Shown: positions 13,163 through 38,783 of the stretch, in pieces
Position numbering within the stretch: position 1 is the stretch's first letter
Layout: every line of letters starts with the position of its first letter
NCBI RefSeq assembly: GCF_947501785.1
Contig: NZ_CANMXB010000001.1
Span: 1,240,001-1,304,000, forward strand
Direction: 5' to 3'
From: an uncultured Litoreibacter sp.
GTDB taxonomy: Bacteria > Pseudomonadota > Alphaproteobacteria > Rhodobacterales > Rhodobacteraceae
Length of the DNA stretch: 64,000 nucleotides
The notes under the pieces: generated by a model
Database searches by the model: none
What the model was told of the DNA's origin: nothing
The model's input: the letters and a program-made list of their open reading frames with translations, nothing else
Made by a program: the position numbers and the translations under genes

Positions 13163-13295
13163 TTGCTCGTTATTGTCTCGCGGAACTTACCAATAGAATT
13201 GTCAACATTAAGGCGGACAAACCGGTTTCGAGCCATAGATTGGCCCATTTTTGTAAATAAACCTTGCCGAAACGAATATCTGGTGGAGTAGGCAA

Positions 13296-14770: not shown

Positions 14771-14951
14771 AACAAGCCCTTTCGTGCAGCCATTGGCGGG
14801 CATCGCGTTGCCACCATGAAGACTTGCCGCACAAGCAGGCGCGCCGCAAGATGTCGTTCGTAGATCGTTACAGGGCGCGGCTGCTTCCGAAAGCATGCCT
14901 GCCGCCCAATAGACTGAGGCGAAACGGCGCAACACTCTGGGAGGGACAGCC

Positions 14952-23324: not shown

Positions 23325-23789
23325 TTAGATCTCCAAATCGAGCCTTGGCTTCCAGAACGGGCGAAACAGCTCAATCTTTGGGCAGCGATTCATGACGACC
23401 TTCAGGCCCGCGTCTTCGGCCAGTTTTGCGGCGGCATCGTCATAGACGCCGATCTGACCCCACAAAACCTTGGCACCGATAGAGATTGCTTTCTCGGCAA
23501 ACCCGTACAGCTCTTCTTTGGGTCTAAACACGTCGACCATATCGACCGGCTTATCGATCTCTTCGAGCGAACGGTACACTTTGAGCCCGCGAATGTCTTT
23601 CAGCTTGGGATTGGGATTGACCGGCAAAATATCGTACCCAATCTCGCTTAGCTGGCGCAACACGCCGTAGCTGAACTTGGTTTTGTCCGCACTGGCCCCG
23701 ACCATGGCGATGGTTTTGACTGACTTCAGGATGTCGGCCAAGTACTTCGGATCATAATCATAGATATGGTCTATTTCGGCCTCTGGCAT
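23325..23789 (-). CDS. CoA-binding (Rossmann) domain protein
   Basis: A 154-residue protein with KTIAMVGASADKTKFSYGVLRQL (nucleotide-binding loop), GYDILPVNPN, VDMVDVFRPKEEL and LWGQIGV, the pattern of YccU-type CoA-binding domains. The function of this family is not established; it binds CoA-like ligands. It begins 1 bp after the ferredoxin stop, so it is the last gene of the organosulfur operon at 23.3-33.2 kb. The start at 23789 (MPEAEIDHIY) fits homologues, and the upstream in-frame extension overlaps the ferredoxin gene. Confidence 0.9.
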   Translation of the reverse strand: MPEAEIDHIYDYDPKYLADILKSVKTIAMVGASADKTKFSYGVLRQLSEIGYDILPVNPNPKLKDIRGLKVYRSLEEIDKPVDMVDVFRPKEELYGFAEKAISIGAKVLWGQIGVYDDAAAKLAEDAGLKVVMNRCPKIELFRPFWKPRLDLEI

Positions 23790-23790
23790 C

Positions 23791-24156
23791 TCAGGGTCCT
23801 TTCGGGCTGGCGATATCCGCCTTGAGTTCGTGGGGCTCCAGCGGATCGAGAAACGGGTTGCGGTAAAGCTTGCCATGGCTTTCCACCCCGATCTCCAGTG
23901 TGATGTCACAGGTCGCCCGCGCGACGCACAAGATGACATAGCCATTGTCGATCTGGCGGTTGCTCAGCGCGACTTGGCGGCGCTGATCCACTTTGCCATC
24001 CGTCAGCTTGGCCGCGCAGGTGATGCAACCGCCATATTCGCAACCGTAGGGCAGATCGACGCCCTGTTGGCGCAACTGCTCCAACAGCGGACGGCGATCA
24101 TTGACCGCGTATTGCGCGTTCTCGCGGTTGGCCAGGGTAACGGTGTGAGTGGTCAT
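23791..24156 (-). CDS. Plant-type 2Fe-2S ferredoxin domain protein
   Basis: A 121-residue electron carrier with the cluster cysteines at 39, 44, 47 and 77 (YGCEYGGCITC ... LCVA), the C-X4-C-X2-C-Xn-C pattern of plant-type ferredoxins. A short C-terminal extension (about residues 95-121) is unassigned. The ATG at 24156 overlaps the stop of the SBP56 gene (ATGA). It may pass electrons to or from the flavin monooxygenase or molybdoenzyme of the same operon; this is inferred from linkage only. Confidence 0.92.
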   Translation of the reverse strand: MTTHTVTLANRENAQYAVNDRRPLLEQLRQQGVDLPYGCEYGGCITCAAKLTDGKVDQRRQVALSNRQIDNGYVILCVARATCDITLEIGVESHGKLYRNPFLDPLEPHELKADIASPKGP

Positions 24157-25502
24157 AACCAGATGTCGCTTGTGCAATCGCCACCGGGATAGCGCGCCTC
24201 GTGGCAGCGGCTGGGGCCATTTGGTTCTTTACCAAAATCAACGATAAAGTCTGGATTGATAACCATGCCCCCATTTTCCGGATCGCAGTCGATCTGCACC
24301 ATAACACCGCCTTTCGTGCGGATTTCCGGGTAGAACTGGTTGTCCCAGGTGCTGAACAAGCTGGTGGTCACGTATAGCCGCCGCCCATCAAGGCTCAGCT
24401 GGAACATCTGCGGCCCGCCTGCCACATCTACGCCATTAACCTGCGGGGCTTTGCCCAGAAGCCCGCCCATAAACACCTGCCCCGTCAGCACCGGATTGTG
24501 CGGATCAGAGATGTCGTATTGGCGCATGTCGCCATGCAGCCAGTTATTGAGATACAGATATTTGTCATCCATCGAGATCAGGATCGCGCTCATCACACCG
24601 GGCAAAGGGATCGGCCAATCGGGATGCATCTCGTTTTCCACGTCAATGATCTTTTCCCACTGCCATTTGCCGCCCTCTTTCCACCAGTGGATCACATTGG
24701 TGCTCAGCGCCGCCCCGCAAAAGCCGTGCGTGCTGTCGGGGTCGTGATGGAACTTGACCTCCAACGGCAACAGCCCGTCTTCGCCAAGATAGAAGCTTTC
24801 AACCGGCTCGCGCTTTTCGAAATCCCAAAAATGCAGCTCGCGCCCGTATTTCAGGTGGCCGACTTCTTCCAGATCAAACCCCGGCATGAATGTATTGGGC
24901 GCGGCCCATTCAGAACTGACCATGATGTTGTGACGCGGCTGATACCAGAAATCATAACCGAACTTGATGTCGCCCATCGAGTTTTCCCACCGACCTACAA
25001 TCTCGAAATCCTTGTTGAGATGCAGATAGCCGCCCGGGGCCTCACCCTTGGCATTGCCCAGCATCGAGATGATGATCTCGGAGCCCAGGCAATGCACGGT
25101 GTGGGGGCCGCTCAAGTCGGTCTTGGCCTTGATCTCAGCCCCATCGATGACCTTGTGCAAACGCGGCGCGCGCGGATCGGTGGCCGTGTCCACGATATGC
25201 AAATTGTTCGACCGCACGCCGGGCAAGATCAGATATTTGCGCGACATGGAGCCATCGTCAAAACAAGACGAGCACGCATTCCAGCCCATGTGATGCAGCT
25301 CATCCCCGATCCCCGGCATCTCAAGCCGGTGGATCACCTGGCTGTAGGTCGGACTGTCCGGGTCAACATCCACCGTCGCCAGATAATCCGGCTTCTGAAT
25401 GCCCGTCCCGGTATAGATCGCAATGGTGTAAAGCAGCGTCTCCCTTGGCGCTTCAATCGCATCCGCAGGAGAAGCGTAACCCGGCCCACAACACTCTGAC
25501 AT
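24153..25502 (-). CDS. SBP56 family selenium-binding protein / probable methanethiol oxidase
   Basis: A 449-residue beta-propeller protein of full SBP56 length, with the family segments NACSSCFDD near residue 80, GPHTVHCLG, SSEWAAPNTFMPGF and LYVTTSLFSTWDNQFYPE. Bacterial members include MtoX, which oxidises methanethiol to formaldehyde, sulfide and hydrogen peroxide, probably with copper. Methanethiol oxidase is the best functional guess here, but not every SBP56 protein has that activity. It lacks the SCO1/MauG-type maturation neighbours reported for MtoX loci. GGAGAGG precedes the ATG. It lies between the molybdoenzyme and ferredoxin genes of the operon. Confidence 0.9.
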   Translation of the reverse strand: MSECCGPGYASPADAIEAPRETLLYTIAIYTGTGIQKPDYLATVDVDPDSPTYSQVIHRLEMPGIGDELHHMGWNACSSCFDDGSMSRKYLILPGVRSNNLHIVDTATDPRAPRLHKVIDGAEIKAKTDLSGPHTVHCLGSEIIISMLGNAKGEAPGGYLHLNKDFEIVGRWENSMGDIKFGYDFWYQPRHNIMVSSEWAAPNTFMPGFDLEEVGHLKYGRELHFWDFEKREPVESFYLGEDGLLPLEVKFHHDPDSTHGFCGAALSTNVIHWWKEGGKWQWEKIIDVENEMHPDWPIPLPGVMSAILISMDDKYLYLNNWLHGDMRQYDISDPHNPVLTGQVFMGGLLGKAPQVNGVDVAGGPQMFQLSLDGRRLYVTTSLFSTWDNQFYPEIRTKGGVMVQIDCDPENGGMVINPDFIVDFGKEPNGPSRCHEARYPGGDCTSDIWL

Positions 25503-25549
25503 TTTCCTCTCCTTAATTCGCTAGATGCTGAACGCTCTGATTGTCAGAA

Positions 25550-27901
25550 CTAGCTCTGTCGCCCGTCAATGATTTCTGGCGGATCAAAGGCACGAACCGC
25601 CGGCGCGGGGCGGTCAAACCGCTCAATTTTCACGAGGCAGGTATGCGCTGTCGGCCCCTGCCCCAGATCAGATGTCCCCTTGTCGCGGGTCAAAGCATTC
25701 GGGTTTCCATGGCGACACATGCCGGTTTCATCGGGATCCCACCAAGCGCCGGTCGCCATTTGAACGACCCCGTCGCGCACATCATCTGAAACCTGGGCGA
25801 CAGCCAAACAGGCACCTCGCGCGTTGAACAACCGGACCAAACCTCCGTGGGCAATGGCACGGCGTTTGGCGTCTTGCGGGTTGATGAGGACGGGTTCGCG
25901 GCCGTCTATTTTTCCTGCAAGACTGATCGCACCCTGATCCAATTGCGAGTGCAGCTTTGTGCTTGGCTGATTGGAAATCAGGTGCAAGTCTTCGCCCGTC
26001 GCATTTCCAAGCCACTCATAGGGGTCAAACCACGCGGGATGCCCAAAGCAATCGCGATACCCAAAGCCCGCGACAGTTTCCGAGAAAATTTCGATCTTTC
26101 CACTTGGGGTGTTCAGCGGGTTGCTCTCTGGATCATCTACAAATCTCTGCAGCATCACGCGCGGTGGGTCATTGGTTTCCACTTTAAGCCAGCCTTTGGC
26201 ACAAAACGCCTCCCAATCCGGTAAGTTCAACTTAGGCTGATCTGACTTGGCCTGATCGACTTCGGTGGACGCAAGGTCGCCGACTTTGCCGGCAGAAAAG
26301 GCCGTCTTGCCATAGATTTCGCGGATCCAGTCATCGGCTGTTTTGTCTTCGGTAAATTGTGTCTCCAGACCCATCTGACGCGCGATGCCGGTGAAGATGT
26401 CATAGTCGTTTCGAACATCCGCCGGAGGCGGCACCGCCTGTTCCACCCGGATCACATAGGGGTCGCGCTGGGACATGCTGATATCGTCGCGCTCGACATG
26501 TGTGGTGCATGGCAGAACAATATCTGCGCGCTTCGCCGTGGGGGTCCAGCACCAGTCATTGCAAATGACCGTGTCAGGCTTTTCCCACGCCTTTGCCAAA
26601 GCATTAAGGTCCTGATGGTGGTGATACGGGTTACCACCTGCCCACCACACAAGCTTTATGTCGGGATAGGTCAGGCTGTGCCCGTCAAATTCAACGGTCT
26701 TTCCAGCACCCAGCAAAAGGTCGGTTATGCGCGCAACAGGAATGTAGTCCGTCACGCCATTCTGACCCTGCGGAAGGGAGCCGCCCTTGAGCAATGGATA
26801 ATCCCCGCCAATGCTATTGGTCGCAGCAAAGCCGAAGGCAAATCCACCTCCGGGCATTCCGATCTGACCCAGCATCGCCGCCAGAGTGATCGCCATCCAA
26901 AACGGCTGCTCGCCATGGTCTTGCCGGGTCAGGGACCAGGCAACCGAGATCACAGTCTTGCTGCGCGCCATACGCCGCGCCAATGCCCGGATCGTGTCAG
27001 CCGGGATTTCGGTCAGCGAAGCCGCCCAGTCGGCGTCTTTCGCAATGCTATCCTTGGCACCCGTCAGGTAGTTCGCAAAGCGCTCGAACCCCACGCAATA
27101 GCGATCCAGAAACGCCTGCGCATGAAGCTTTTCAGTGTAAATCGTGTGGGCCAAAGCCAACATCAAAGCAACGTCGCTATTGGGCCTTACGGGCAGCCAT
27201 TCCGCGTTTGTCTCAGGGATCACGTCGCCCTTCAACGGGGAAATATTGACGAACTCAACGCCCGCTGCGACTGCCTGTTCAATGCCCGCGCGCTGACTGT
27301 GGACCCCCATGCCACCTGCATCAATCTGACTGTTCTTGATTGGGATGCCGCCAAACGCCACGACCAGCTGGCCATGATCTGCAATCGCGCTCCAGCTATT
27401 GGTCGTGTTCAGAAACTCGCGGTAAGACCCGAGCACATGCGGGATCATCGCCTCAGCGGCCGCAAAGGAATAGGTGAACTTGGAACTGGTAAACCCACCC
27501 GTACAATTCAGAAACCGCTTGAGCTGGCTTTGCGCATGGTGAAACCGCCCGGCACTGGCCCATCCATAAGACCCCGCATAAATGGCGTTTGAGCCATGCG
27601 TGTCGCGCACGCGCGTGATCTCACGCGCCACCAGCTCTTCCACCTCGGACCAATCCAGCGCGACAAAGCGGTCCTTCCCGCGCAAATCGGTCTGTGCGCC
27701 AGGACCATCACGTAGCCAGCTTTCGCGCACCATTGGTGATGTGATGCGGCTAGGTGCGTTGAGCGCATCGAGGATGCCCTGCCCGATTGGGGAGGGGTCC
27801 TTGTCTTCCTCAAACGCACGCATCTCGACAAGCTTGCCGTCTTCGACAACCGCGCGGTAGGTGCCCCAGTGGTTGGTCGTCAAATAGGTGCGCTCAGCCA
27901 T
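25550..27901 (-). CDS. Molybdopterin-dependent oxidoreductase, BisC/DorA/TorA family
   Basis: A 783-residue enzyme of the DMSO/TMAO/biotin-sulfoxide reductase subfamily, containing YAGSYGWASAGRFHHAQSQ (Ser is the expected molybdenum ligand), NDWCWTPTAKRADIVLP and C-terminal GDLQ-like cofactor segments. It has no twin-arginine signal, so it is cytoplasmic like BisC, and no N-terminal iron-sulfur motif. It probably reduces an S-oxide or N-oxide. It overlaps the upstream flavin monooxygenase gene by 8-11 bp; ATGs at 27904 and 27901 are both possible, and I use 27901 for spacing from GAGAGG. Confidence 0.92.
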   Translation of the reverse strand: MAERTYLTTNHWGTYRAVVEDGKLVEMRAFEEDKDPSPIGQGILDALNAPSRITSPMVRESWLRDGPGAQTDLRGKDRFVALDWSEVEELVAREITRVRDTHGSNAIYAGSYGWASAGRFHHAQSQLKRFLNCTGGFTSSKFTYSFAAAEAMIPHVLGSYREFLNTTNSWSAIADHGQLVVAFGGIPIKNSQIDAGGMGVHSQRAGIEQAVAAGVEFVNISPLKGDVIPETNAEWLPVRPNSDVALMLALAHTIYTEKLHAQAFLDRYCVGFERFANYLTGAKDSIAKDADWAASLTEIPADTIRALARRMARSKTVISVAWSLTRQDHGEQPFWMAITLAAMLGQIGMPGGGFAFGFAATNSIGGDYPLLKGGSLPQGQNGVTDYIPVARITDLLLGAGKTVEFDGHSLTYPDIKLVWWAGGNPYHHHQDLNALAKAWEKPDTVICNDWCWTPTAKRADIVLPCTTHVERDDISMSQRDPYVIRVEQAVPPPADVRNDYDIFTGIARQMGLETQFTEDKTADDWIREIYGKTAFSAGKVGDLASTEVDQAKSDQPKLNLPDWEAFCAKGWLKVETNDPPRVMLQRFVDDPESNPLNTPSGKIEIFSETVAGFGYRDCFGHPAWFDPYEWLGNATGEDLHLISNQPSTKLHSQLDQGAISLAGKIDGREPVLINPQDAKRRAIAHGGLVRLFNARGACLAVAQVSDDVRDGVVQMATGAWWDPDETGMCRHGNPNALTRDKGTSDLGQGPTAHTCLVKIERFDRPAPAVRAFDPPEIIDGRQS

Positions 27902-29324
27902 CATTCATCCTCTCTGCGGGCTCAATGCGGTCAGGGCCAACCCGCCGGTACAGCATGCTGGTCGTCGGGCTGGCCTTGATATGCTCAGCCTCCCATCCGT
28001 CCGTCTCACCCAATGGGTCGGTTCCGCAAAGCCGCGCAAAGCGCAGGGCCATTTCGGCCTGAGAATGCGGCATCGTTTGATGACCCTCCCGGACGCAATC
28101 TAGAAGTCCTTCGCGCATTGTGTCTACAGGTCGCGGTATCTGCCCTGACCAAGTGTAGGCGAGGAACCGAGCTTGTTGTTCAATGGGGGTCGGATAGCTT
28201 CCCGCTTGGGACCAAAGCCCCATAAATGCCAGCCCCGGCAGGTCGGGGTGAAAGGTGAAGCTGTCCAGATCAATCGATGTGTCTGAAAGGTTAAGAGTGG
28301 CCGCGATGTCTGAGGGCAGGAACGGCAAGCTCAGTTGGTATCCGGTTCCGGCAATGATGCCATCCACCTCGATAGCGCGGTCATCGGCAAACCTGATGGA
28401 TGTCCCGTCTATTTCTTTGGGCCATGGCAACGGGTGCACGCGCCCTTCGGCCACGAGGTTCAAATAGTGCTGCGACCCGGTTGCGCCTGCCTTGGCAAAA
28501 TCGGAGTGCGGCTTTGGCGTGCCGTAATTGCTGGGATCACCTGCATGCTCCATCACCTTGGCTTCGCTATCGCGCATGAGCGCGTCGGGGTCATCCAAGG
28601 CCAAGCGGCCCCGCTCGTAAGTAAACAGCCGGTATTCGATCGGAACGCCCAGAAACATCTTCGGGTTCACATAGCGCTGACGCCGCTGGCAAAGATGCAC
28701 AGAGGCCGCGCCAAGCATCGACAGATCCGAGGCGATTTCGAGTGAGGATATCGACCCGCCCAGAACGGCAACGCGCTTGTCCTGGTACGCCTTCGGCGAC
28801 TTGTAATTGAAAGCGTGGATCAGACCCAATTCACCTGACATATTTTCGGCCCCCGGAATGTCGGGAATAACGGGTGCGTTGAACCTGCCGGTTGCGACGA
28901 CAACATAGGGCGCGGTGTCGGTGAGTTGGGTACCATCGCGATCAAGCTCTAGCTCCCACCCCGTGTCACCGCGTCGGAGCTGTCTTAGGCTGGTTCCAAA
29001 CTGGATAAGATCCAAAATCCCGAACTTGTTGGCGAAGCTCTCGAAATAGTCCCGCACTACGGAGTTATGCGGAAAGATCGGGGTGCGATCTGGGAAATTC
29101 AAATCAGAGAACCGGGTTGCGTCCCGGTATGTATTGCTGACCATCTGGGGCCAAACGCCGCTTCGCGGATTTGTCCATGACCACTGCCCGCCGACCTGTG
29201 AATGTGCCTCGTAAATCCGTGGTGAAAACCCGCGCGACAAAAGCCAGCGTGCGGCAGCTAAACCAGATGGGCCCGCGCCGATGATGATGACCTCGCGGCT
29301 CAATGGAAGTAGAGACCGCCGCAC
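27894..29324 (-). CDS. Flavin-containing monooxygenase-type FAD/NAD(P) oxidoreductase
   Basis: A 476-residue protein with an FAD Rossmann motif IIIGAGPSGLAAARWLL near the N-terminus, a middle ATGRFNAPVIPDIPG segment and a second NADPH-binding motif VAVLGGSISSLEIASDL. The pattern is that of class B flavin monooxygenases/FMOs, which oxidise soft nucleophiles such as sulfides or amines. In this operon, oxidation of a sulfide to a sulfoxide would pair with the adjacent BisC-like reductase. The start is ambiguous: GTG at 29324, or TTG at 29303 overlapping the SDR stop. It overlaps its neighbours on both sides. Confidence 0.88.
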   Translation of the reverse strand: MRRSLLPLSREVIIIGAGPSGLAAARWLLSRGFSPRIYEAHSQVGGQWSWTNPRSGVWPQMVSNTYRDATRFSDLNFPDRTPIFPHNSVVRDYFESFANKFGILDLIQFGTSLRQLRRGDTGWELELDRDGTQLTDTAPYVVVATGRFNAPVIPDIPGAENMSGELGLIHAFNYKSPKAYQDKRVAVLGGSISSLEIASDLSMLGAASVHLCQRRQRYVNPKMFLGVPIEYRLFTYERGRLALDDPDALMRDSEAKVMEHAGDPSNYGTPKPHSDFAKAGATGSQHYLNLVAEGRVHPLPWPKEIDGTSIRFADDRAIEVDGIIAGTGYQLSLPFLPSDIAATLNLSDTSIDLDSFTFHPDLPGLAFMGLWSQAGSYPTPIEQQARFLAYTWSGQIPRPVDTMREGLLDCVREGHQTMPHSQAEMALRFARLCGTDPLGETDGWEAEHIKASPTTSMLYRRVGPDRIEPAERMNDG

Positions 29325-30055
29325 ACATTGAGCGCTTGGCCGGTCACAAAGCCCGACAGATCAGAGGCGAAGAAGACGGCGGGCCCCACAATGTCCTCTG
29401 GTTCACCAAGACGACGTAGCGCGGTTGCGCCTGCCCAATAGTCGCGGTCTTCCTGCTTTTGCAGATTGTTCTGGCCCATCTCCGTCATGATGATCCCCGG
29501 GCACAGCGCATTGACGTAGATGCCCTGGTTGCCAAGTTCTTGCGCATAGACCCGTGTCAATGTGATCGCCGTCGCCTTTGTCGCGGCGTAGTGGCCTTGC
29601 TGTTCGATCCCTTGGCGCCCGGCAAGCGAGGCGATGTTGACGATACGACCTGTCCCCCGCTCTTTCATTTGGGGCAGGATGGCATTGGTGCACAGCATGA
29701 TGCCCTTGGCGTTCACATCGAAATGCTGATCCCACGTCGCCTCGTCCAGAGCATCCAGACGGCTGAGCTTCAAAACGCCCGCGTTATTCACCAAGACATC
29801 AATCTGGCCCATCTCGGCGGTTGCTTCTGCAACGACTTCTTCGACACGGGCCTTGTTGGTGACGTCAATCGGGATGCACATCGCGCGGCGGCCTGCGGCT
29901 TCAACCTGTCCCGCGACGGCAGCCATGGCATTTGCTTCATGCTCCAAATCCGTGATCACGATATCCGCGCCCGCCTCTGCCATCCCTTTGGCCAGTGCCG
30001 CGCCGATGCCCCGTGATGCGCCGGTGACAAGAACCGTTTTGTCTTTGAGGATCAT
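29300..30055 (-). CDS. Short-chain dehydrogenase/reductase
   Basis: A 251-residue SDR with TGASRGIG at the N-terminus, NNAG, the catalytic YAATK (GHYAATKATA) and C-terminal GFVTGQALNVCGG. The active-site Ser is in the IASLAG segment. It probably oxidises a polyol or aldose, given the kinase and aldolase next to it, but the substrate is unknown. GGAGCTAAACTC precedes the ATG at 30055, which overlaps the PfkB stop by 4 bp. Confidence 0.92.
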   Translation of the reverse strand: MILKDKTVLVTGASRGIGAALAKGMAEAGADIVITDLEHEANAMAAVAGQVEAAGRRAMCIPIDVTNKARVEEVVAEATAEMGQIDVLVNNAGVLKLSRLDALDEATWDQHFDVNAKGIMLCTNAILPQMKERGTGRIVNIASLAGRQGIEQQGHYAATKATAITLTRVYAQELGNQGIYVNALCPGIIMTEMGQNNLQKQEDRDYWAGATALRRLGEPEDIVGPAVFFASDLSGFVTGQALNVCGGLYFH

Positions 30056-31008
30056 GAGTTTAGCTCCTTAACCGGCCAGCTTTCCATGGCCGCATATGTC
30101 TGATCAAAGTCGCGCAGAATGCCCTGGGAGCCGAGCCCGCACGCCACATGCGCAGCCACCGTATTGGCAAACCGCGCCGTTTTAGCGAGGTCCCAACCTT
30201 TCGACAGGCCCACGATCACGCCGGCGGAAAAGCTGTCGCCGCACCCAGTGGTGTCGACAACGTCGATCTTATGCGCCGGAAGCTGAAAAGCGTCGCCAAC
30301 GGCGGGGTCGACCCAAACACCATCGCCCTCAAGCGTGATCAGCGCATTCTGTACGCCGCGCGCTTTGAACCATGCAGCCACCTGCGCCGGAGTGCCGCCC
30401 CCCGCCATGGTCCGCGCCTCCTCGATAGAGGGGACGAAATAGTCGATGTAAGGCAGCAAAGGTTCAACCAGCGCTATGGTCTTGTCATTGGCAAGGATCA
30501 GGTCAAAGACGGTCGTCCGGCCCAGTTCTTTGGCCCGCTTCAAAAGCGCAAGGGACCGTGCGCCATCAAAAGCGGCCAGAAGCCCTGTCCCGCCCAGATG
30601 TACGATCCGCGCATCGCAGGCCGCTTCGATCCCCGCGTCGTCCAACGTGAAAGTGTTGGACGTGCCCGGCACAAAGAAAGCTGACCGCGCGCCGTCTGGC
30701 GCAATTGGCAGCATCGACATGGGCGTCTGCACTTGGGCATTTCGATTGACCAGAGAGAGGTCGATCCCGGCATCGGTCATGGCAGAAGCCAACCAGTCGC
30801 CCATGGGATCTTCGCCCAACTCGGTTGCGACCTTCACATTCAGCCCAAGCATCGCGCAGTCCAGCGCGGTTGCCCCAGCCGTTCCCGCGACGGTCATCGT
30901 CATCTGATCCACAAACGTCGCCCCGCCGCGCGGCGGCATCGCATCCGCATGGGCGCAAAGCGTGTCCAGCACGACAAAGCCCACGGCACTCAGGTCGCAC
31001 GCCGTCAT
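30052..31008 (-). CDS. PfkB-family carbohydrate kinase
   Basis: A 318-residue ribokinase-fold kinase. The C-terminal signature DTTGCGDSFSAGVI with the catalytic Asp is intact, and the N-terminal GGXX sugar-binding region (TMTVAGTAGATALDCAMLGL) is present. PfkB enzymes phosphorylate sugars, including sulfofructose, tagatose or pentuloses. The next gene upstream is a class II aldolase, so a phosphorylate-then-cleave pathway is likely. The start ATG at 31008 is preceded by GGAGG and overlaps the aldolase stop by 4 bp. Confidence 0.93.
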   Translation of the reverse strand: MTACDLSAVGFVVLDTLCAHADAMPPRGGATFVDQMTMTVAGTAGATALDCAMLGLNVKVATELGEDPMGDWLASAMTDAGIDLSLVNRNAQVQTPMSMLPIAPDGARSAFFVPGTSNTFTLDDAGIEAACDARIVHLGGTGLLAAFDGARSLALLKRAKELGRTTVFDLILANDKTIALVEPLLPYIDYFVPSIEEARTMAGGGTPAQVAAWFKARGVQNALITLEGDGVWVDPAVGDAFQLPAHKIDVVDTTGCGDSFSAGVIVGLSKGWDLAKTARFANTVAAHVACGLGSQGILRDFDQTYAAMESWPVKELNS

Positions 31009-31658
31009 TCCGCCTCCGTCAAGCCGTAGCCCGCTATCTTGTTCATCACGTCTTCTATTTGCTGTTCAGTCAAAAGCGGCGGCTCCCCCAAAAGCAGTGC
31101 GCCGTGATATTGCCGGGCCAACGTCTCTAACTCTTCCGCGCGCCAAAAGGCCTGTTCAATCGACGTACCCACAGCGATGGAGCCATGGTGATCCAAGAGG
31201 CAAGCGTGACGCCCCTCGAGAGCGGTCACCGCATGATCAGAAAGCTCCTGACTGCCAAAGATAGCATAGGGCGCCACCCGAATGTTTGGCCCGCCGAAAA
31301 TCGCGATCATGTAGTGGATCGGTGGTATCTCCCGCCCATGGATTGCCAAAATCGTGCAATAGGTCGGATGCGCATGGACGATTGCCCCGACATCAGATCG
31401 CGCCGCAAGAACATCTCGATGGAACCGCCACTCGGACGACGGCGCTATGGGCCCTTCCGCGCGCCCGTCCATATGTACGTAGGCAATTTTGTCGGGTGTC
31501 AGGTCCGCATAGGGCGTCGATGTTGGCGAAATCAGCAGGCCGTCACCATGCCGGATAGAGACATTGCCAGACGTGCCCTGATTCAATCCAGAGTTGTTCA
31601 GCTTGAGGCAATGGTCAATGATTGCCTGTCTTTTGTCATGTTCTTCGCCGGTCGTCAT
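31005..31658 (-). CDS. Class II aldolase/adducin family protein
   Basis: A 217-residue protein resembling fuculose-1-phosphate or methylthioribulose-1-phosphate aldolases: NQGTSGNVSIR substrate loop, ISPTSTPYADLTPDKI, EWRFHRDVLAARSDVGAIVHAHPTYCTIL (two zinc histidines, HAH), and LLDHHGSIAVG with a further histidine. Zinc-dependent retro-aldol cleavage of a phosphorylated sugar is predicted. It lies 4 bp after the sulfatase gene and overlaps the PfkB kinase by 4 bp. The start at 31658 (MTTGEEHDK) is chosen because it is the ATG next to the sulfatase stop. Confidence 0.93.
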   Translation of the reverse strand: MTTGEEHDKRQAIIDHCLKLNNSGLNQGTSGNVSIRHGDGLLISPTSTPYADLTPDKIAYVHMDGRAEGPIAPSSEWRFHRDVLAARSDVGAIVHAHPTYCTILAIHGREIPPIHYMIAIFGGPNIRVAPYAIFGSQELSDHAVTALEGRHACLLDHHGSIAVGTSIEQAFWRAEELETLARQYHGALLLGEPPLLTEQQIEDVMNKIAGYGLTEAE

Positions 31659-31662
31659 GGCG

Positions 31663-33201
31663 CTACTCGGCCGCGATGTTGGCAGCGTTGAGCCCCAACC
31701 GTTCAAGCTGTTCAGGCGGGCAGCCTTCTTCTTGCAAGCGTTGAAGTAACAAGGCGACCATCCGGTCCCGTTCGCTTGGGTGACTGTCCCATAGGTTGTC
31801 GCGCTGATCCGGGTCCTGCCCCCTGTGGAACAAGAAGTTTTCGTAAGTGCGTGGGTCAACTTGGATCGGCATTTTCCACATTGGATAGGGCACCGACGGA
31901 TCGAACTGCGCCTGATCCACAGGCTGCGCCGGGGCGCTCCCCACACGCCCATCAACCGGATTATCCACCAGCAACGGCCGCGCGATCATCGTAGAATAGC
32001 TGAACAAGTCATGACCATCGACAGGTGATTTAAACAGCGTCCACTCCCCATCCGTGATGCAAACACCCTGCCCGAACGTTCCGTAGGTGATGTCTGCATG
32101 CGGCGCTTCGCCTTTTGAGATCAACGGCATCAAGCTGACGGAATGGCGCGTTTCGTCTGGCGGCGTGCCACCGGAGGCGTCGATGACCGTCGAAAACAGA
32201 TCAACAGTCTGGGTCAGCGCGGCTGAGCGCCCCCCTTCTCCTTTGCGACCGGGATGCCAGACGACCATCGGAATATTCGCGTGGCTGTCGTAATGCGGGT
32301 ATTGCTTGCCAAAGGCTCCGCGCTCACCAAGATCATGCCCGTGATCCGTTGTGAAGATGACCATCGTGTCATCCCACAAATCGAGATCCCCAATCGTGTC
32401 GAGCAAGTGGCCGAACCATTTATCCACCATGGTGGTCTTGCCGTAGTACTGAGCTTTCAGATAGGCCAGTTCATCCGGCGTTGTCTGCGCCATAAAAGCA
32501 TCAAGATCGGCATAGACCTGATACGGCGGCCAGATGTTGTAGTCGCCCGCATCCCCCTTCAGATCGTCCGTATACATCGTGTCGTAGGGGGCGGGCACAT
32601 GGAACGGCTCGTGGACGTCAAAGCTCTCGACTTGCAAGAAAAACGGCCCACGGCCGGCGTTTTTTCGTAGCCAGTTTGAAGCCGCTGTGAACGTCTTGGC
32701 CGGGAAGTAATCCTCTTCGCCGCCAAAATCCTTCACGTTCTCCCAATATTGGCGCATATGATAAGGTGAGCGATACTCACTCATCTTTTCGACCCATTTG
32801 GGCACGTCTCCGTCATGAGGCAGTTGGTGGTAATCGGTCTCATGCCCGCGAATCATCTCAAGCGTCATGAAGCCTTGCATGTAGCCATTCGCCGTCTCTT
32901 CCCAATAATGGTAGTGATCGGTGACCATGCCGGTGTTGTAGCCTTGCTTCTGCACCTCGCGCGGCAGCTTGGGATCAAATACTTCAAGCGGGCCCCATGG
33001 GCGCCACATGAACTCTTTGCGCCCGGCAAAAATTTCACGTCTGGCGGGCATGCACGGCAAGCTCGAGATGAAATGATTGTCGAATACCAGCGACTTATCA
33101 GCGAAGGCGTCCAGGTTCGGCGTGCGGCACACGGTGTCAGAATTGTAGATCTTCAAGGCCTCTTTGTTGAGGCTGTCAACCAAGACGAGAATGATGTTCA
33201 T
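31663..33201 (-). CDS. Type I sulfatase (formylglycine-dependent)
   Basis: A 512-residue alkaline-phosphatase-superfamily sulfatase. The formylglycine site C50-M-P-A-R (SLPCMPARREIFAG) matches C-x-P-x-R, the early LVLVDS aspartate binds calcium, and TTDHGHDLGER supplies later metal ligands. It has no signal peptide, so it acts in the cytoplasm, probably on an imported sulfate ester. GGGGAGGAC precedes the ATG at 33201. It is the first gene of the nine-gene operon ending at 23325 and is divergent from the ABC transporter. Confidence 0.93.
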   Translation of the reverse strand: MNIILVLVDSLNKEALKIYNSDTVCRTPNLDAFADKSLVFDNHFISSLPCMPARREIFAGRKEFMWRPWGPLEVFDPKLPREVQKQGYNTGMVTDHYHYWEETANGYMQGFMTLEMIRGHETDYHQLPHDGDVPKWVEKMSEYRSPYHMRQYWENVKDFGGEEDYFPAKTFTAASNWLRKNAGRGPFFLQVESFDVHEPFHVPAPYDTMYTDDLKGDAGDYNIWPPYQVYADLDAFMAQTTPDELAYLKAQYYGKTTMVDKWFGHLLDTIGDLDLWDDTMVIFTTDHGHDLGERGAFGKQYPHYDSHANIPMVVWHPGRKGEGGRSAALTQTVDLFSTVIDASGGTPPDETRHSVSLMPLISKGEAPHADITYGTFGQGVCITDGEWTLFKSPVDGHDLFSYSTMIARPLLVDNPVDGRVGSAPAQPVDQAQFDPSVPYPMWKMPIQVDPRTYENFLFHRGQDPDQRDNLWDSHPSERDRMVALLLQRLQEEGCPPEQLERLGLNAANIAAE

Positions 33202-33252
33202 GGTGTCCTCCCCAATCAAGCAAAAGCTCTGGCATCAGCGCAATACGCCATA

Positions 33253-33268
33253 ATGATTATAATCAGAA
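33253..33268. promoter_or_regulatory. Operator candidate 1 in the sulfatase/ABC transporter divergent promoter
   Basis: ATGATTATAATCAGAA lies 52 bp from the sulfatase start and contains the perfect 12-bp palindrome TGATTATAATCA. Its reverse complement recurs with one mismatch at 33317-33332. The likely binding protein is the GntR/UTRA regulator at 35986-36816. Confidence 0.6.
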
Positions 33269-33316
33269 TGTTATGGTTCAACTCAATAATAAATTTGAAA
33301 AGTTGACGAACCTCAT

Positions 33317-33332
33317 TTCTGATCATAATCAT
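33317..33332. promoter_or_regulatory. Operator candidate 2 in the sulfatase/ABC transporter divergent promoter
   Basis: TTCTGATCATAATCAT is an inverted copy of the 16-bp element at 33253-33268 (15 of 16 bases) and lies 65 bp upstream of the substrate-binding protein gene. The two copies flank an AT-rich core, so one regulator could control both directions. Confidence 0.6.
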
Positions 33333-33397
33333 AAAGGCATTAACCGATGGCGACTGCAAGCCTGTTAAATCGGAACAGCATCTGGGAGAAAATTATC

Positions 33398-34432
33398 ATG
33401 GCGAACTCAAAAAACAGCTACACAAGTAGGCGCACCGTATTGCGCGGAGGCTTGGCGGCAGGCGCCGCACTGGCCGCACCGACATTCTTCGTCGGCAAGG
33501 CCCACGCAGCGAATGAGAAGCTCAAAGTCGGCATCATTCCCGCATACTCGTTTGGCCTGTACTGGCTGATCCAAGACCAAGGATTTGCGCCCGGTGTCGA
33601 GATGGAGTTCAGCGTTTTCCCGTCGGGCCCTCCTGCGATCGAGGCCATGGTTGGCGGATCGGTTGACACGATCACGGTGGGCTCGGTCCCCCCATTGGCA
33701 GCGATGTTCCGCAAGGTCGCAAACTTCCGCGAAATCTCGATCTGCGGCGACGCGTCCGGCCTGTTCCAGATCGTCGGCAAACCCGGAATGAGTTCGCTGG
33801 CCGACCTTGAAGGCAAGAAGATCGCCGTCACCTCCGGCTCGAACTTTGACTTCTTCCTTGGCGTAGCACTCGCCAATGAGGGGCTCAGCGACATGCCTCT
33901 GACACGTGTGAACATGGAACCCATCGATGGCCAATCCGCCTTTATCGCGGGTGCTGTGGATGCGACGGTGCCTTTGGCGACCTCGCGCAAACTCATCTAC
34001 GATGCCCTTCCCGACGCGTCGCTTTTGGCCGACGGCTCGGCCATGCCAATCGATGCGCGCCCATCCATCATGGACGTCTTCATGTCGACGCAAGAAAGCA
34101 TCGACGCTCATGAGGACGCATACGTGGAAATCGTTCGCGCGTTCCACGACAAGGCCGTGCCGATGCTGCGCGATGACAACGCGGCAGTGGTCGAGCGGAT
34201 GATCGAATGGCAAACCGGCATGGGCCGCGCCGGCGTCACGGCGGCAGATGTCGAACCTTTGCTGAACGGCTACTTCTACTTCGACAAGGCCGAGATCAAA
34301 GACGTCTACGCCCGCGGTATCCTCAATAGCGCGCTTCAGGTGCAGTCCGACTTCCTCGTCGCGAACGAACGGATCGGAGGCGTGCCGGATCTCGACGCGC
34401 TTGTGTCAGACCAGATCGTCGCGAAAATCTAG
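33398..34432 (+). CDS. ABC transporter substrate-binding protein, SsuA/TauA/NMT1-like
   Basis: A 344-residue exported protein. SRRTVLRGGLAAGAALAAP near the N-terminus is a twin-arginine-type signal, with cleavage probably after AHA. The mature part (KVGIIPAYSFGLYWLI; AMVGGSVDTITVGSVPPLAAMF; SLADLEGKKIAVTSGSN) matches the family that binds sulfonates, taurine, nitrate or thiamine precursors. Substrate specificity cannot be read from the sequence. GGGAG lies 10 bases before the ATG at 33398. First gene of an operon with permease, ATPase and GntR. Confidence 0.92.
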   Translation: MANSKNSYTSRRTVLRGGLAAGAALAAPTFFVGKAHAANEKLKVGIIPAYSFGLYWLIQDQGFAPGVEMEFSVFPSGPPAIEAMVGGSVDTITVGSVPPLAAMFRKVANFREISICGDASGLFQIVGKPGMSSLADLEGKKIAVTSGSNFDFFLGVALANEGLSDMPLTRVNMEPIDGQSAFIAGAVDATVPLATSRKLIYDALPDASLLADGSAMPIDARPSIMDVFMSTQESIDAHEDAYVEIVRAFHDKAVPMLRDDNAAVVERMIEWQTGMGRAGVTAADVEPLLNGYFYFDKAEIKDVYARGILNSALQVQSDFLVANERIGGVPDLDALVSDQIVAKI

Positions 34433-34438
34433 TTTGTG

Positions 34439-35215
34439 ATGGACGCAATTAAACGCATCTTGTCAGGGCGCTTTGCATTGGGCGCCCTTTCAATCACGCT
34501 GGTGTTGGGCGCCTATCAGCTGATCACGATGCAGCCGGACAACAACCCTGCACTTCTGCCCCCAATTCCCGACATCATCGCCAGCTTTTTCACCAATATC
34601 GAAGCGGGCTCACTACAAGCCGCATTGGGCGCCAGTCTCTACCGCATTTTCCTTGGGTTTTTCATCGGCACGACCTGCGCCCTGATCATTGGCTGTCTGG
34701 TCGGCTGGTACAAAACTGTGGAGTATCTGATCGATCCCTTGATCGAGGCGATCCGCCCTATACCGCCGCTGGCCTACATCCCGATCATCATCATCTGGTT
34801 CGGAATCGAAGAGTTCAGCCGGGTGCTGCTCATTTCCATCGCCTGTTTCATGGTCTGCGTGGTGAATGTCATCGCAGGCATGAAGAACGTCCCGCAAGTC
34901 TACGTGGACGCGGCGTCTACCATGGGGGCCTCGCGGTTCCAGGTGTTTCGCACCGTCGCCATTCCGGCTGCCACGCCCTTTATCATCACGGGATACCGCA
35001 TCGCTTTGGCTGCCGCGTGGACAACACTGGTCGCCGCAGAACTGATAGCAGCACCCAGCGGGCTGGGCTACATGCTTCAGGAAGGCCGCAGGTATTTCCT
35101 GACCGATCAGGTGATGATGATCATCGTCATTATCGGAGCCTGTGCCTTCATCATGGACCGCACATTCCGCGCGATCCAAAAACGCCTGATGGTTTGGTCG
35201 GAGGCGCGTGAATGA
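34439..35215 (+). CDS. ABC transporter permease, SsuC/TauC-like
   Basis: A 258-residue inner-membrane permease with about six helices and the family EAA-type loop (DAASTMGASRFQVFRTVAIPAATPFIITGYR). It pairs with the binding protein 6 bp upstream and the ATPase that overlaps its 3' end by 4 bp. GTG at 34436 and ATG at 34439 are both possible starts. It is the single membrane subunit and presumably forms a homodimer, as in Ssu systems. Confidence 0.93.
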   Translation: MDAIKRILSGRFALGALSITLVLGAYQLITMQPDNNPALLPPIPDIIASFFTNIEAGSLQAALGASLYRIFLGFFIGTTCALIIGCLVGWYKTVEYLIDPLIEAIRPIPPLAYIPIIIIWFGIEEFSRVLLISIACFMVCVVNVIAGMKNVPQVYVDAASTMGASRFQVFRTVAIPAATPFIITGYRIALAAAWTTLVAAELIAAPSGLGYMLQEGRRYFLTDQVMMIIVIIGACAFIMDRTFRAIQKRLMVWSEARE

Positions 35216-35970
35216 TGTCTGAAATCATTGTCGACAACCTGACCCATACCTTTGCAAAAGGCACACCTGAGGCGCTGACCGTGCTGGAAGGGATCAACCT
35301 GACCTTTCCGGCCGGCAGCTTTACATCCATCGTCGGCACGTCTGGATGCGGCAAGTCCACCTTGCTGAAAATGATGGCAGGGCTGTTCGACCCGACGGAT
35401 GGCGAAATGACACTGGACGGGCAAGTCATCAAAGGAACGGACCGAAAGCGCGGCATGGTCTTTCAGCAAGACGCGGTCTTCCCTTGGATGACAGTCGCCA
35501 AGAATATCTCCTACGGGCCGCGTATCCATGGGGCGTCCAAGGCGGATCAGATAGCGGCTGAAGCCAAATGGGTCGAGGCTGTGGGCCTGAAAGGATTTGA
35601 GGACCGGTGGCCACGCGAACTTTCCGGCGGCATGCGCAAACGCGTCGATATCGGACGTGTCTACGCAAATGACCCGGATGTGCTGCTGATGGATGAACCT
35701 TTCGGCGCCTTGGATGCGCAAACCAAGGAAAGACTGCAATCCGATCTTCTGGCCACTTGGAAAGAGACACAAAAGACCATCATCTTTGTCACTCACGATC
35801 TTGAAGAGGCCATCTTCCTGTCAGATCAGATTGTTGTTATGTCGGCGCGTCCCGGGCGGATAAGCCATATCGAGGATGTCAGCCTGCCCCGCCCGCGCAG
35901 TGACGATATGCGCCTTACATCAGAGTTTCTGGATATCAAGCGCAAGCTCTGGAAAATGCTCGACCACTAG
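35212..35970 (+). CDS. ABC transporter ATP-binding protein, SsuB/TauB-like
   Basis: A 252-residue ATPase with Walker A GTSGCGKSTLLKMMAG, signature LSGGMRKRVDIGR and Walker B VLLMDEPFGALD, plus the switch histidine in FVTHDLEEA. The two-base GM variation in the signature (LSGGM) is common in this subfamily. The ATG overlaps the permease stop by 4 bp, with GGAGG upstream. Supplies energy for the SsuA-like uptake system. Confidence 0.95.
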   Translation: MMSEIIVDNLTHTFAKGTPEALTVLEGINLTFPAGSFTSIVGTSGCGKSTLLKMMAGLFDPTDGEMTLDGQVIKGTDRKRGMVFQQDAVFPWMTVAKNISYGPRIHGASKADQIAAEAKWVEAVGLKGFEDRWPRELSGGMRKRVDIGRVYANDPDVLLMDEPFGALDAQTKERLQSDLLATWKETQKTIIFVTHDLEEAIFLSDQIVVMSARPGRISHIEDVSLPRPRSDDMRLTSEFLDIKRKLWKMLDH

Positions 35971-35985
35971 AGGACTTCAAAGGCC

Positions 35986-36816
35986 TTGAATACTTCCAAC
36001 ACCAAGAAACGAACGGCTGGGCGCCCCAGTTTTCAGGCCGTCGAAGGAATGGCCTTCGAGATTTTTCAAAGGCAGTCACAGCATGTTGTTCTGTCGCGCA
36101 CGGCATCATTGCCGCTATGGGAACAGCTCTACCAACACCTCGAAAACCTGATTTTGAGCGACAAGCTGGCTGTCGGCAGCCGCATCCCATCTGAACCGCT
36201 ATTGTGTGATCTGTTTGGAGTATCGAAGGCCGTTGTCCGCCATGCCATTTCTGCACTTGCGTCAAAGGGGCTTGTGGTGAAGTTGCCCCGCAAAGGCATG
36301 TTCGTGTGCGAAAGGCCAAAAGAAAGCGGGTTTGTCACGTCCAACGTCTCGCTGTTCGAAGATATGATGGCGCGCGGAGCCTCAATTGACACGAAGACAT
36401 TCGCCTTCACGACCGAAAAAGCTGACCCGGAAGAACAACAGGGGTTGCTGCTAGGCCCCGATGACGACGTCGTCCGAATTACGCGCCTGTTTCGGGTGGA
36501 TGGCATGCCGATCACCCATTCGGTTATCAGTTTTCCGGCGGCGAAACTCCCGGGCTTCGCGCATAAAGACATCAAGAACCGCTCAATTCTTGCTGCAATC
36601 AAACAGCTCTATGGCCTGAAAGTGGTCCGTGCTGATCGTTGGTTGGATGCGCATATGCCAAATGCTCTGATCTGCGAGCGGATGGAGTTGAACGACCCAA
36701 AGCCTCTGATCCATATTGAATCCATAGGCTACGATCAAAATGGCGAGCGCCTCGAATATTATCAGGCATATTACGACACAGGTGCTGCTAGAATCAGAAT
36801 TTCAGTAGCCGACTAA
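35986..36816 (+). CDS. GntR-family transcriptional regulator with UTRA ligand domain
   Basis: A protein of up to 276 residues. The winged helix is at about 45-110 (LWEQLYQHLENLILSDKLAVGSRIPSEPLLCDLFGVSKAVVRHAISALASKGLV) and the UTRA ligand-binding domain follows (about 125-275). UTRA regulators of the HutC/PhnF type sense the transported or catabolised compound. It is 15 bp after the ABC ATPase, so it is the regulator of this locus and probably binds the paired elements at 33253-33332. The start is uncertain: TTG at 35986 with AAAGG very close, or ATG at 36049. Confidence 0.9.
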   Translation: MNTSNTKKRTAGRPSFQAVEGMAFEIFQRQSQHVVLSRTASLPLWEQLYQHLENLILSDKLAVGSRIPSEPLLCDLFGVSKAVVRHAISALASKGLVVKLPRKGMFVCERPKESGFVTSNVSLFEDMMARGASIDTKTFAFTTEKADPEEQQGLLLGPDDDVVRITRLFRVDGMPITHSVISFPAAKLPGFAHKDIKNRSILAAIKQLYGLKVVRADRWLDAHMPNALICERMELNDPKPLIHIESIGYDQNGERLEYYQAYYDTGAARIRISVAD

Positions 36817-37416: not shown

Positions 37417-38406
37417 TCAGTATTCCGTCGAAGGAAAGCCCATGGCGCGCCACGCGGTTACGCCACCTTCGAGACTACGTGCGTCAACCCCGGCGGCACG
37501 CAGTTCCTGCGCCACTTTCTGGCTGACCCAGAACCCATACATGCAATAGACGATAACGGGCTTGTCCTTTGGCATTTCATTGACCCATTCGGCGACTTTG
37601 AATGAATCTCGCCAGGCCGTGTCGCTGATCCGCGACGTATACCGCTCACAATCATCGTCGTGGCGCACGTCAAGAACAAGGGGGGCGTCCTCGTCTCTTT
37701 GCATCATGCTTTTGAGCTCGGCGACAGATATCAGTTCAGAGCTTTCTGACGGTTTCGTTTCGTGGTGCGTAGCGCCTTTGGCATGTTGGAGCGCTTCTGC
37801 GACGCGGTCCCAGTGGATATTGTTCAAATACGTCTTCACATAGGCGAGCTGATCGCCGTCGAAGTCCGCGGCATAGACCTGTTCGCGCAAATCCAACGCC
37901 AGTATCGGAACCGAACTGCCGAGTACCAACCGACCATCTTCGGATGCAACGATTTGCAGGCGGTCAAACCGCGCGCACCACGCAAGTGCCACCCATCCTG
38001 ACCTGTCACTTTGCGAGACCGCCATCATTGCGAACTCCGCCTGCCAACCCGCCACATCACCATAGGTTTCGCAGATCGCTTTCTTCAGATCGCCGTCATC
38101 GATGTCTGCGCCGCCATCTTCCGCCAAACCGGCCAAAAACAGTTCTTGAAGCACAACAAGATCGGCAAGTGCGGCCTGCTGACGGACGTAAGAGGCCAGC
38201 TCAGACTTGGGTGAGCCCGAATGCCGGAGCGCGGCTATTTTCGTGTCGATTTCACTCAACGCCCGGATCGTGCCGCCATAGTCCTTCTCGTAATACCGCT
38301 CCAGCATTTCCGGAGTGAAGCCGGAGATTTTATGTGCTTTGAATGGGATGCCTTTGACTAAGTGATCAATGGGCTCTTGGCGTGAAGGGTTCGAAGCATC
38401 GGTCAT
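37417..38406 (-). CDS. Fe/Mn superoxide dismutase-like domain fused to rhodanese, metal site degenerate
   Basis: A 329-residue two-domain protein. Residues ~20-205 have the Fe/Mn SOD fold sequence (GWVALAWCARFDRLQIVAS; VPILALDLREQVYAADF; YVKTYLNNIHWDRVAEAL). At the DxWExxH metal motif it keeps Asp172 but has Gln176 for His, and the N-terminal metal histidines are also missing, so it probably cannot dismutate superoxide. Residues ~225-325 are a rhodanese domain with the active-site loop CMYGFW around Cys288. AAGGGA precedes the ATG at 38406. An in-frame ATG at 38538 with GGAG would add a hydrophobic leader, but no homologue is known to me with it. Confidence 0.88.
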   Translation of the reverse strand: MTDASNPSRQEPIDHLVKGIPFKAHKISGFTPEMLERYYEKDYGGTIRALSEIDTKIAALRHSGSPKSELASYVRQQAALADLVVLQELFLAGLAEDGGADIDDGDLKKAICETYGDVAGWQAEFAMMAVSQSDRSGWVALAWCARFDRLQIVASEDGRLVLGSSVPILALDLREQVYAADFDGDQLAYVKTYLNNIHWDRVAEALQHAKGATHHETKPSESSELISVAELKSMMQRDEDAPLVLDVRHDDDCERYTSRISDTAWRDSFKVAEWVNEMPKDKPVIVYCMYGFWVSQKVAQELRAAGVDARSLEGGVTAWRAMGFPSTEY

Positions 38407-38783
38407 GGGAGTTCCCTTTCTGAAGTCGGTGGTTCGATGAGAGTTAGGTGACGCCTCGTCATGGGACCAGTCGCCACGCGAGCGCCCCAATACTGCCGAG
38501 GCAAGCAAGATCGGAATGGCCAGCATCTTCGCGGCCATTTTGGATTTCTCCGTGAAATTCCGCTGGAACAGAAACTTTCAGATTGGCGGTGCGATACGCA
38601 CCAGGTATCGACTTTCGATCATTGTAGAAGTCGTCGTCGCGAAGCATATCAGGAAAGACGGGACAATCCGGTGTGCCTGCCGCAAGCGTCACAGTCGTTG
38701 CCGAGAATTTTGTATGTGACGCCAAAAAGCATCCTCCATGCGAAAATCATAGAACTGGAAGGATGCAAGATAGGGCTGGCGCC
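38407..38783. other. Unassigned stretch upstream of the SOD-rhodanese gene
   Basis: I see no credible gene. A minus-strand frame of 88 codons (38459-38725) and plus-strand frames overlap here, but none has family-like features. It borders a decayed dehydrogenase fragment, so it may be degraded sequence. Confidence 0.35.

Follow-up and report, generated by a model that had tools for sequence, protein, structure and literature searches.

A two-module sulfatase and methanethiol-oxidase-type operon in a Litoreibacter genome as a candidate organosulfur catabolic system

The Rhodobacteraceae cluster 1 methanethiol oxidases RdMTO and RlMTO belong to the SBP56 family, and in the sections of the source that we draw on, the tested cluster 1 enzymes convert methanethiol to formaldehyde and sulfane sulfur and need three cysteines, located in the motifs GWNACS, HTV(I)HC, and GGDCS(T) (PMC10936201). 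An SBP56 enzyme for methanethiol is also encoded by the mtoX operon of Ruegeria pomeroyi and Hyphomicrobium, for which the portion of the source consulted gives adjacent SCO1/SenC and MauG genes and, in R. pomeroyi, an IclR-type regulator upstream (PMC5739008). Shunts made of a kinase and a class II aldolase handle methylthio-pentoses, and in the dihydroxyacetone phosphate (DHAP) shunt for 5-methylthioadenosine and 5-deoxyribose (MtnK, MtnA, and Ald2), such a pair is described, in the part of the source cited, as yielding DHAP and a methylthio aldehyde (PMC10986504). Also close are the L-fucose pathway (FucI, FucK, and FucA) and dimethylsulfoniopropionate (DMSP) demethylation with methanethiol oxidation. 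Here, we describe a locus that shares features with each of these, found in a 64-kb stretch (hereafter the window; G000:C1:1240001-1304000) of the 3.89 Mb genome of an uncultured Litoreibacter sp., a relative of the marine roseobacters. Nine collinear minus-strand genes, running from 33201 to 23325, encode a sulfatase, a class II aldolase, a PfkB-family kinase, a short-chain dehydrogenase/reductase (SDR), a flavin monooxygenase (FMO), a BisC-family reductase, an SBP56 protein, a ferredoxin, and a CoA-binding protein, and are divergent from a Tau/Ssu-type ATP-binding cassette (ABC) importer and a GntR/UTRA regulator.

We see about an even chance that this locus acts as one regulated system for catabolizing a small sugar-alcohol sulfate ester that also bears a methyl-sulfur group, the latter most likely in the form of a sulfoxide or of a sulfonium later turned into one. 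The preliminary description had proposed organosulfur catabolism with a dedicated importer and regulator, and our analysis supports this. In fact, the locus is a genuine and conserved, yet composite, catabolic system of two separable modules, and represents a variant on a known type of catabolic operon. Literature searches on the gene set itself and on arsenosugar degradation, ribitol sulfate, and thiosugar sulfates returned no matching pathway or compound, in agreement with the earlier remark that no described pathway has this set. According to the list of open reading frames (ORFs) and Pfam scans, all nine minus-strand and four plus-strand ORFs fit their stated families. With the starts refined for the sulfatase (ATG at 33201, with GGGGAGGA upstream), the aldolase (about 31658, replacing 31955), and the CoA-binding protein (23789, replacing 23945), the eight junctions measure +4, -4, -4, -25, -11, +47, -4, and +1 bp, and thus range between an overlap of 25 bp and a gap of 47 bp, as first described.

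The first module comprises the sulfatase of the alkaline phosphatase superfamily (31663..33201; PF00884, 126 bits), the aldolase (31005..31658; PF00596), the PfkB-family sugar or ketose kinase (30052..31008; PF00294, 134.5 bits), the SDR (29300..30055; PF13561, 211 bits), and the FMO (27894..29324; PF00743, 140 bits), all on the minus strand, together with the importer and regulator. The aldolase appears to be a FucA-like ketose-1-phosphate aldolase, with FucA structures as its best matches in the PDB and with L-fuculose-phosphate aldolase (NF005984) as the best NCBIfam model (228.7 of 264); TIGR01086 gives 215.2 of 400.25, and both are under cut-off. Along with the PfkB kinase, this fits the phosphorylate-then-cleave logic suggested earlier. 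No NCBIfam model scored above cut-off for the kinase, none fixed a substrate for the kinase, SDR, or FMO, and PDB searches with the SDR and FMO were unspecific. While the aldolase is closest to FucA of the L-fucose pathway, the nine products include neither a fucose isomerase nor an FGGY kinase, and sulfur-handling genes are present. Likewise, a kinase and class II aldolase are shared with the DHAP shunt as described in the cited part of PMC10986504, though the window has a PfkB kinase and an SDR, lacks an isomerase among the nine products, and adds the sulfatase, importer, FMO, BisC, and SBP56.

To gauge conservation, a sulfatase scan of genome contigs was used, from which 80 loci (L numbers) were kept of 109 relatives. 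The 44 with a sulfatase at least 57.5% identical (a cut chosen in this analysis) are termed close and the other 36 more distant, and the locus counts are lower bounds, as some loci end at contig ends. Within the order sample, this sulfatase occurs in 5 of 390 genomes at E<=1e-110, host included. Module 1 is kept in several other genera: aldolase and kinase are found in 9 of the 44 close loci, with the SDR in 7 and with the FMO too in 6. In these six (L033, L034, L035, L036, L038, and L075), the sulfatase-aldolase-kinase-SDR-FMO order lies beside the importer, with extra genes inserted in three. Since this order recurs beside the importer, and since a predicted operator (below) occurs twice in the spacer only, we regard the gene set as beyond chance. 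Several loci carry additional genes, including an acetoacetate-CoA-ligase-type gene (654.8 bits in L035, above the cut-off of 520.9), a thiolase-like gene, and DUF35 and MaoC domains in L035, L036, L055, and L075, and a downstream aldehyde dehydrogenase in L036, L038, and L041. Modules 1 and 2 adjoin in the window and in two close loci, namely L033, with module 2 on the opposite strand, and L047, where the PfkB, SDR, and FMO genes are not in the locus. The notion of one conserved nine-gene block was set aside, as BisC-SBP56-ferredoxin-CoA-binding recurs separately; hence, the nine genes are not conserved together as a full set, though each module is. Separately, L047 contains at about 13086-14872 a second CoA-binding gene by what appears by eye to be an O-acetylhomoserine sulfhydrylase-like gene, downstream of the sulfatase, aldolase, and GntR genes.

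On the plus strand, the importer consists of a substrate-binding protein (33398..34432), an ABC permease (34436..35215; PF00528), and an ABC ATPase (35212..35970; PF00005), and is followed by the regulator (35986..36816; PF00392 and PF07702), with Pfam scans upholding the earlier assignment of all four ORFs. The binding protein falls below the family cut-offs of TIGR01728 (86 of 163.5 bits) and TIGR01729 (54.4 of 304.25), and has by eye a twin-arginine-type N-terminus. Nonetheless, its structure model (mean pLDDT 74, built from 16 sequences) has the TauA/SsuA fold, the best PDB matches being 6ssy (TauA), 3ksj, 3ksx, 3e4r, and 2x26 at TM 0.59-0.73, so that fold and sequence are both nearest TauA and SsuA, as was initially recognized. 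This resemblance, together with the phosphonate monoester hydrolases among matches of the sulfatase superfamily, is what favors a sulfonate as the imported compound, with the sulfatase-family enzyme being a phosphonate/phosphodiester-type or auxiliary hydrolase. We consider this improbable, as none of the nine products is a desulfonating enzyme of the TauD, SsuD, Xsc, SuyAB, or CuyA type, and as 17 of the 44 close loci encode formylglycine-generating enzyme (FGE) in the stretch retrieved, which is expected of true sulfatases. Importer and sulfatase are linked, in that this binding protein, at 60% identity or more, is present in 20 of the 44 close sulfatase loci versus none of the 36 more distant. 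Of the two substrate classes offered in the preliminary description, a sulfated polyol or sugar is thus preferred over a sulfonate, because the conserved partner of the importer is a sulfatase and there is no desulfonating enzyme among the nine products.

Within the 196-bp divergent promoter region (33202..33397) lie two copies of TTCTGATTATAATCAGAA, a near-palindromic 18-bp predicted operator, at 33251-33268 and 33317-33334, each with two mismatches. No further match occurs in the window at up to three mismatches (0 expected), and one extra match, at 23746, appears at four mismatches, for which the background is 6 matches in 723,624 bases (40 BisC loci). Allowing up to four mismatches, the operator pair is kept with 66-67 bp spacing in L033, L034, L035, L036, L039, and L075, and a single copy is found in the spacer of L038. 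Accordingly, among the six loci with aldolase, PfkB, SDR, and FMO genes, five have the pair and L038 one copy. Third copies are located shortly 5' of the CoA ligase gene in L075 and of the aldolase gene in L039. The regulator has both GntR and UTRA domains (GntR/HutC-type), and its pairing with these sites, through which it may control both transcripts, is predicted from sequence.

The second module comprises, again on the minus strand, the BisC-family molybdopterin S-/N-oxide reductase (25550..27904), the SBP56 protein (24153..25502; PF05694, 684 bits), the 2Fe-2S ferredoxin (23791..24156; PF00111), and the CoA-binding (CoA_binding_2) protein (23325..23789; PF13380, 125.5 bits). In the SBP56 protein, all three diagnostic cysteines are present, in GWNACS (C77), HTVHC (C138), and GGDCT (C443). 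Measured against the motifs given in the cited sections of PMC10936201, it is therefore predicted, in keeping with its first annotation, to be a cluster 1 methanethiol oxidase type like RdMTO and RlMTO. Unlike these, it sits in a sulfatase/aldolase operon, and its methanethiol activity is a prediction. Unlike the mtoX operon as portrayed in the part of PMC5739008 cited, neither SCO1/SenC nor MauG is among the operon products. This SBP56 (at least 68%) is found in 13 of 196 order genomes, host included, and in the 12 others a ferredoxin gene is always within 0.5 kb and a CoA-binding gene is near in 11. No sulfatase cluster occurs within about 20 kb around SBP56 in these 12 genomes, and 8 of them have nearby an IclR gene belonging to one family, which may be compared with the IclR-type regulator of R. 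pomeroyi mtoX. SBP56-ferredoxin-CoA-binding also adjoins BisC outside sulfatase clusters (L131, L134, L159, and L162). Two of these belong to sulfatase-holding genomes with the SBP56 elsewhere: that of L034, where it keeps company with BisC, rhodanese, and a sulfur dioxygenase domain of the Blh type (L131), and that of L069, where its neighbors are BisC and a CUT1-type importer (L134). In plasmid pP30_b of Phaeobacter inhibens (L190), SBP56, ferredoxin, CoA-binding protein, rhodanese, sulfur dioxygenase (Blh-type domain), enoyl-CoA hydratase, CoA ligase, and a DmdA-like protein (377 bits, cut-off 410) are encoded in one run. This is reminiscent of DMSP demethylation with methanethiol oxidation, though no DmdA-like (GcvT-fold) product is among the nine in the window. 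Plasmid pP30_b is typed as conjugative.

BisC of the window has TIGR00509 (bisC_fam) as its best NCBIfam model, at 911.1 bits and below the cut-off of 1017.55, and by eye neither it nor the sulfatase has a signal peptide. We collected 40 BisC loci by BisC similarity from 36 of 394 and 23 of 385 genomes with matches (host in both samples). SBP56 lies beside BisC in L159 and L162, is at the contig edge in L151, and is a degraded remnant in L153. The commonest other neighbor is a GcvT-fold gene, in nine loci (L149, L150, L151, L153, L154, L163, L174, L181, and L182). Of these genes, the one tested, from L151, matches trimethylamine N-oxide (TMAO) demethylase (191.5 of 1100) better than DMSP demethylase (157.5 of 410), and trimethylamine monooxygenase is the closest NCBIfam model for the FMO of the window (95.6 of 675). 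Such hints favor an amine N-oxide, with BisC as a TMAO-like reductase and SBP56 as incidental; we find this very unlikely, as SBP56 and its rhodanese and sulfur dioxygenase partners are sulfur-handling and the nine products include nothing that processes amines. The loci joining BisC with a GcvT/DmdA-fold gene may possibly be a second S- or N-oxide catabolic cluster. With regard to gene content, eight of the nine add at least one of a ProVWX-type importer, a choline-dehydrogenase-like protein, an iron-type alcohol dehydrogenase, an aldehyde dehydrogenase, and a CitE/RipC-like protein. Elsewhere in the host genome, there are a second SBP56 (G000:C1:3593883-3595232; 43% identity, three cysteine motifs present) and a BisC relative (37%; G000:C1:3136796-3139051), and window positions 37417-38538 encode an Fe/Mn superoxide dismutase C-terminal domain fused to a rhodanese domain.

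A parallel form of the sulfatase cluster (variant B), in which the sulfatase is accompanied by an FGGY kinase, a zinc dehydrogenase, and another class II aldolase, occurs in 19 of the 44 close loci. A BisC-family gene is present in 18 of these, the exception being L068 on a 15.5 kb contig, and a transketolase C-half in 16; the gene set is also on two annotated plasmids, of Paracoccus seriniphilus and Marinovum algicola. The best-scoring model is xylulokinase for the kinase (262 of 380) and ribulose-5-phosphate 4-epimerase for the aldolase (245.5 of 251). Neither score reaches its cut-off, and from these matches five-carbon chemistry seems likely. Compared with the binding protein of the window, those of both forms show 69-96% identity (17 relatives aligned), so both forms probably recognize one ligand; some parallel-form loci carry another transporter in its place. 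In a BisC tree of 60 rows (2 duplicate loci and proteins outside 650-950 aa dropped; 16 variant B rows of 20 loci), the parallel form makes up one clade (100/100), the window and L033 another (100/100), and L047 lies outside both. Hence, such reductases entered sulfatase clusters more than once. Descent of the window and parallel-form BisC as one inherited gene was set aside in view of these separate clades. A third form, in five loci (L045, L046, and L092 of SAR116, L044 labeled Flavobacteriales, and L040 of Paracoccaceae), has genes for DhaK, a LacD-like protein, an SftI-like isomerase (116.7 of 700), and, by eye, a nucleoside-hydrolase-like protein, which suggests a sulfated glycoside or riboside as substrate.

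With respect to the sulfatase, the name formylglycine sulfatase given at the outset is upheld by the CMPAR motif, but not by the maturation machinery, as neither FGE (PF03781) nor the sulfatase-maturing radical SAM enzyme anSME (TIGR03942) was detected in the host genome at E<=0.001. The cysteine of the CxPxR motif is kept in all 60 aligned sulfatase relatives, including in FGE-less genomes, so that the sulfatase, if functional, must be matured by some route. Among the 14 whole genomes behind sulfatase loci, PF03781 is present in 12 (11 at 195 bits or more, and L075 at 119.5 bits); it was not found in those of L033 and L047, the latter a metagenome-assembled genome, nor in two plasmid records searched alone. 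Further sulfatase carriers of the order sample with strong matches are G045, G049, G332, and G347, of which G045 and G049 share an identical stretch and G347 is the L061 genome, counted once. The base rate for any PF03781 match in the order is 229 of 390. Across the 18 distinct carriers, all three with adjoining SBP56 (window, L033, and L047) are without PF03781, whereas 14 of the 15 others have strong matches of at least 195 bits (Fisher p 0.005, or 0.02 if the window and L033 count once, with small numbers and kinship ignored). Formylglycine formation resembles methanethiol oxidation chemically, the two differing in the thiol that is acted on. That SBP56 matures the sulfatase, as a copper thiol oxidase turning CH2-SH into an aldehyde and thereby as a new kind of FGE, is nonetheless highly improbable in our estimation, given that this SBP56 is also in the FGE-holding genomes of L034, L039, and L048 and in sulfur-oxidation contexts without a sulfatase.

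As a working model, we take 5-deoxy-5-(methylsulfinyl)pentitol sulfate as the candidate substrate, the methyl-sulfur pentitol sulfate being what we infer from the gene content. Uptake would proceed through the TauA-like ABC importer, after which the sulfatase would remove the sulfate. In an order that we propose, the SDR would then convert the polyol to a ketose, the PfkB kinase would phosphorylate it at C1, and the FucA-like aldolase would yield DHAP and a short aldehyde keeping the methyl-sulfur group. BisC would reduce the putative S-oxide and the FMO may oxygenate an intermediate, with release of methanethiol, which SBP56, partnered by the ferredoxin and CoA-binding protein, would convert to formaldehyde and sulfane sulfur. 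The GntR/UTRA protein would govern both transcripts through the paired operators. Of this model, the sequence itself shows the operon, the linkage of importer and sulfatase, the two modules, the operators, and the SBP56 cysteines. Much the same enzymes would suit an arsenical. Dimethylarsinoyl-ribitol sulfate is of an algal arsenical class in which a single molecule bears a pentitol, a sulfate ester, and an oxide, and its degradation would use a sulfatase, polyol dehydrogenase, kinase, aldolase, and oxide reductase; the FMO even has a weak ArsO match (84.5 of 425). Still, we give an arsenic substituent only a slim chance: viewing the neighborhoods by eye revealed no ars gene (no search was aimed at ars genes), SBP56 and the sulfane-sulfur partners indicate sulfur, and the literature searched gave no support.

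Several observations weigh against a single pathway for a methyl-sulfur polyol sulfate. No such compound was found in the literature searched, no enzyme was identified for the methanethiol-releasing (C-S cleaving) step, and the FMO and BisC act in opposite redox directions. The SBP56 of the window reaches 149.3 bits with the MtoX equivalog NF052453 (cut-off 650), and SBP56 was not seen in the remaining 36 of the 40 BisC stretches, several of them short. Among the loci compared, the exact nine-gene order is present in the window alone. No operator was detected in the spacers of L037, L041, L047, L048, and L055 at up to four mismatches, and in L033, module 2 comes with a separate IclR gene and lacks the operator. 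The genomes of L036, L041, and L075 hold module 1 (in L041 without the FMO) but neither a BisC (E<=1e-100) nor an SBP56 of more than 45% identity. In place of these are acetoacetate-CoA ligase, thiolase-like, MaoC, and DUF35 genes (L036 and L075) and aldehyde dehydrogenase (L036 and L041). From this it follows that the module 1 substrate need not hold an S-oxide, and BisC and SBP56 may be an optional add-on. Furthermore, the parallel form, with its xylulokinase-like, ribulose-5-phosphate-4-epimerase-like, and transketolase components, looks like ordinary pentulose chemistry. These last points, and the 12 order genomes with a standalone SBP56-ferredoxin(-CoA-binding) group, would also be accounted for by two stacked functions, in which module 1 serves a sulfated pentitol or sugar with sulfur in the ester only, and module 2 is a captured and co-transcribed clean-up for methanethiol or S-oxides. 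We judge this unlikely, albeit worth serious consideration. Against it, module 2 adjoins sulfatase/importer clusters in the differing arrangements of the window, L033, and L047, and nearly all variant B clusters have a BisC, one of a separate clade. Moreover, this SBP56 is commoner in sulfatase-holding genomes, being in 6 of 20 (at least 67%; two beside the sulfatase cluster) versus 12 of 195 in the order sample with the host's own excluded (Fisher p 0.003, or 0.03 when the in-cluster cases are dropped, the samples being unmatched by taxon and kinship ignored). A sulfated dimethylsulfonium compound, a bromophenol, is recorded from a red alga in the section cited (PMC9322897), and salacinol-type sulfoniums from plants in the part cited of another source (PMC8159842).

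If the single-pathway reading is true, Rhodobacterales and other Alphaproteobacteria would import and consume sulfated methyl-sulfur polyols, with DHAP, sulfate, formaldehyde, and sulfane sulfur as the products, and there would be an unrecognized methanethiol source beside DMSP. The conserved importer, sulfatase, and operator offer direct handles for identifying the compound, and the recurrent BisC-SBP56 module would serve as a genome marker for S-oxide-to-methanethiol catabolism.

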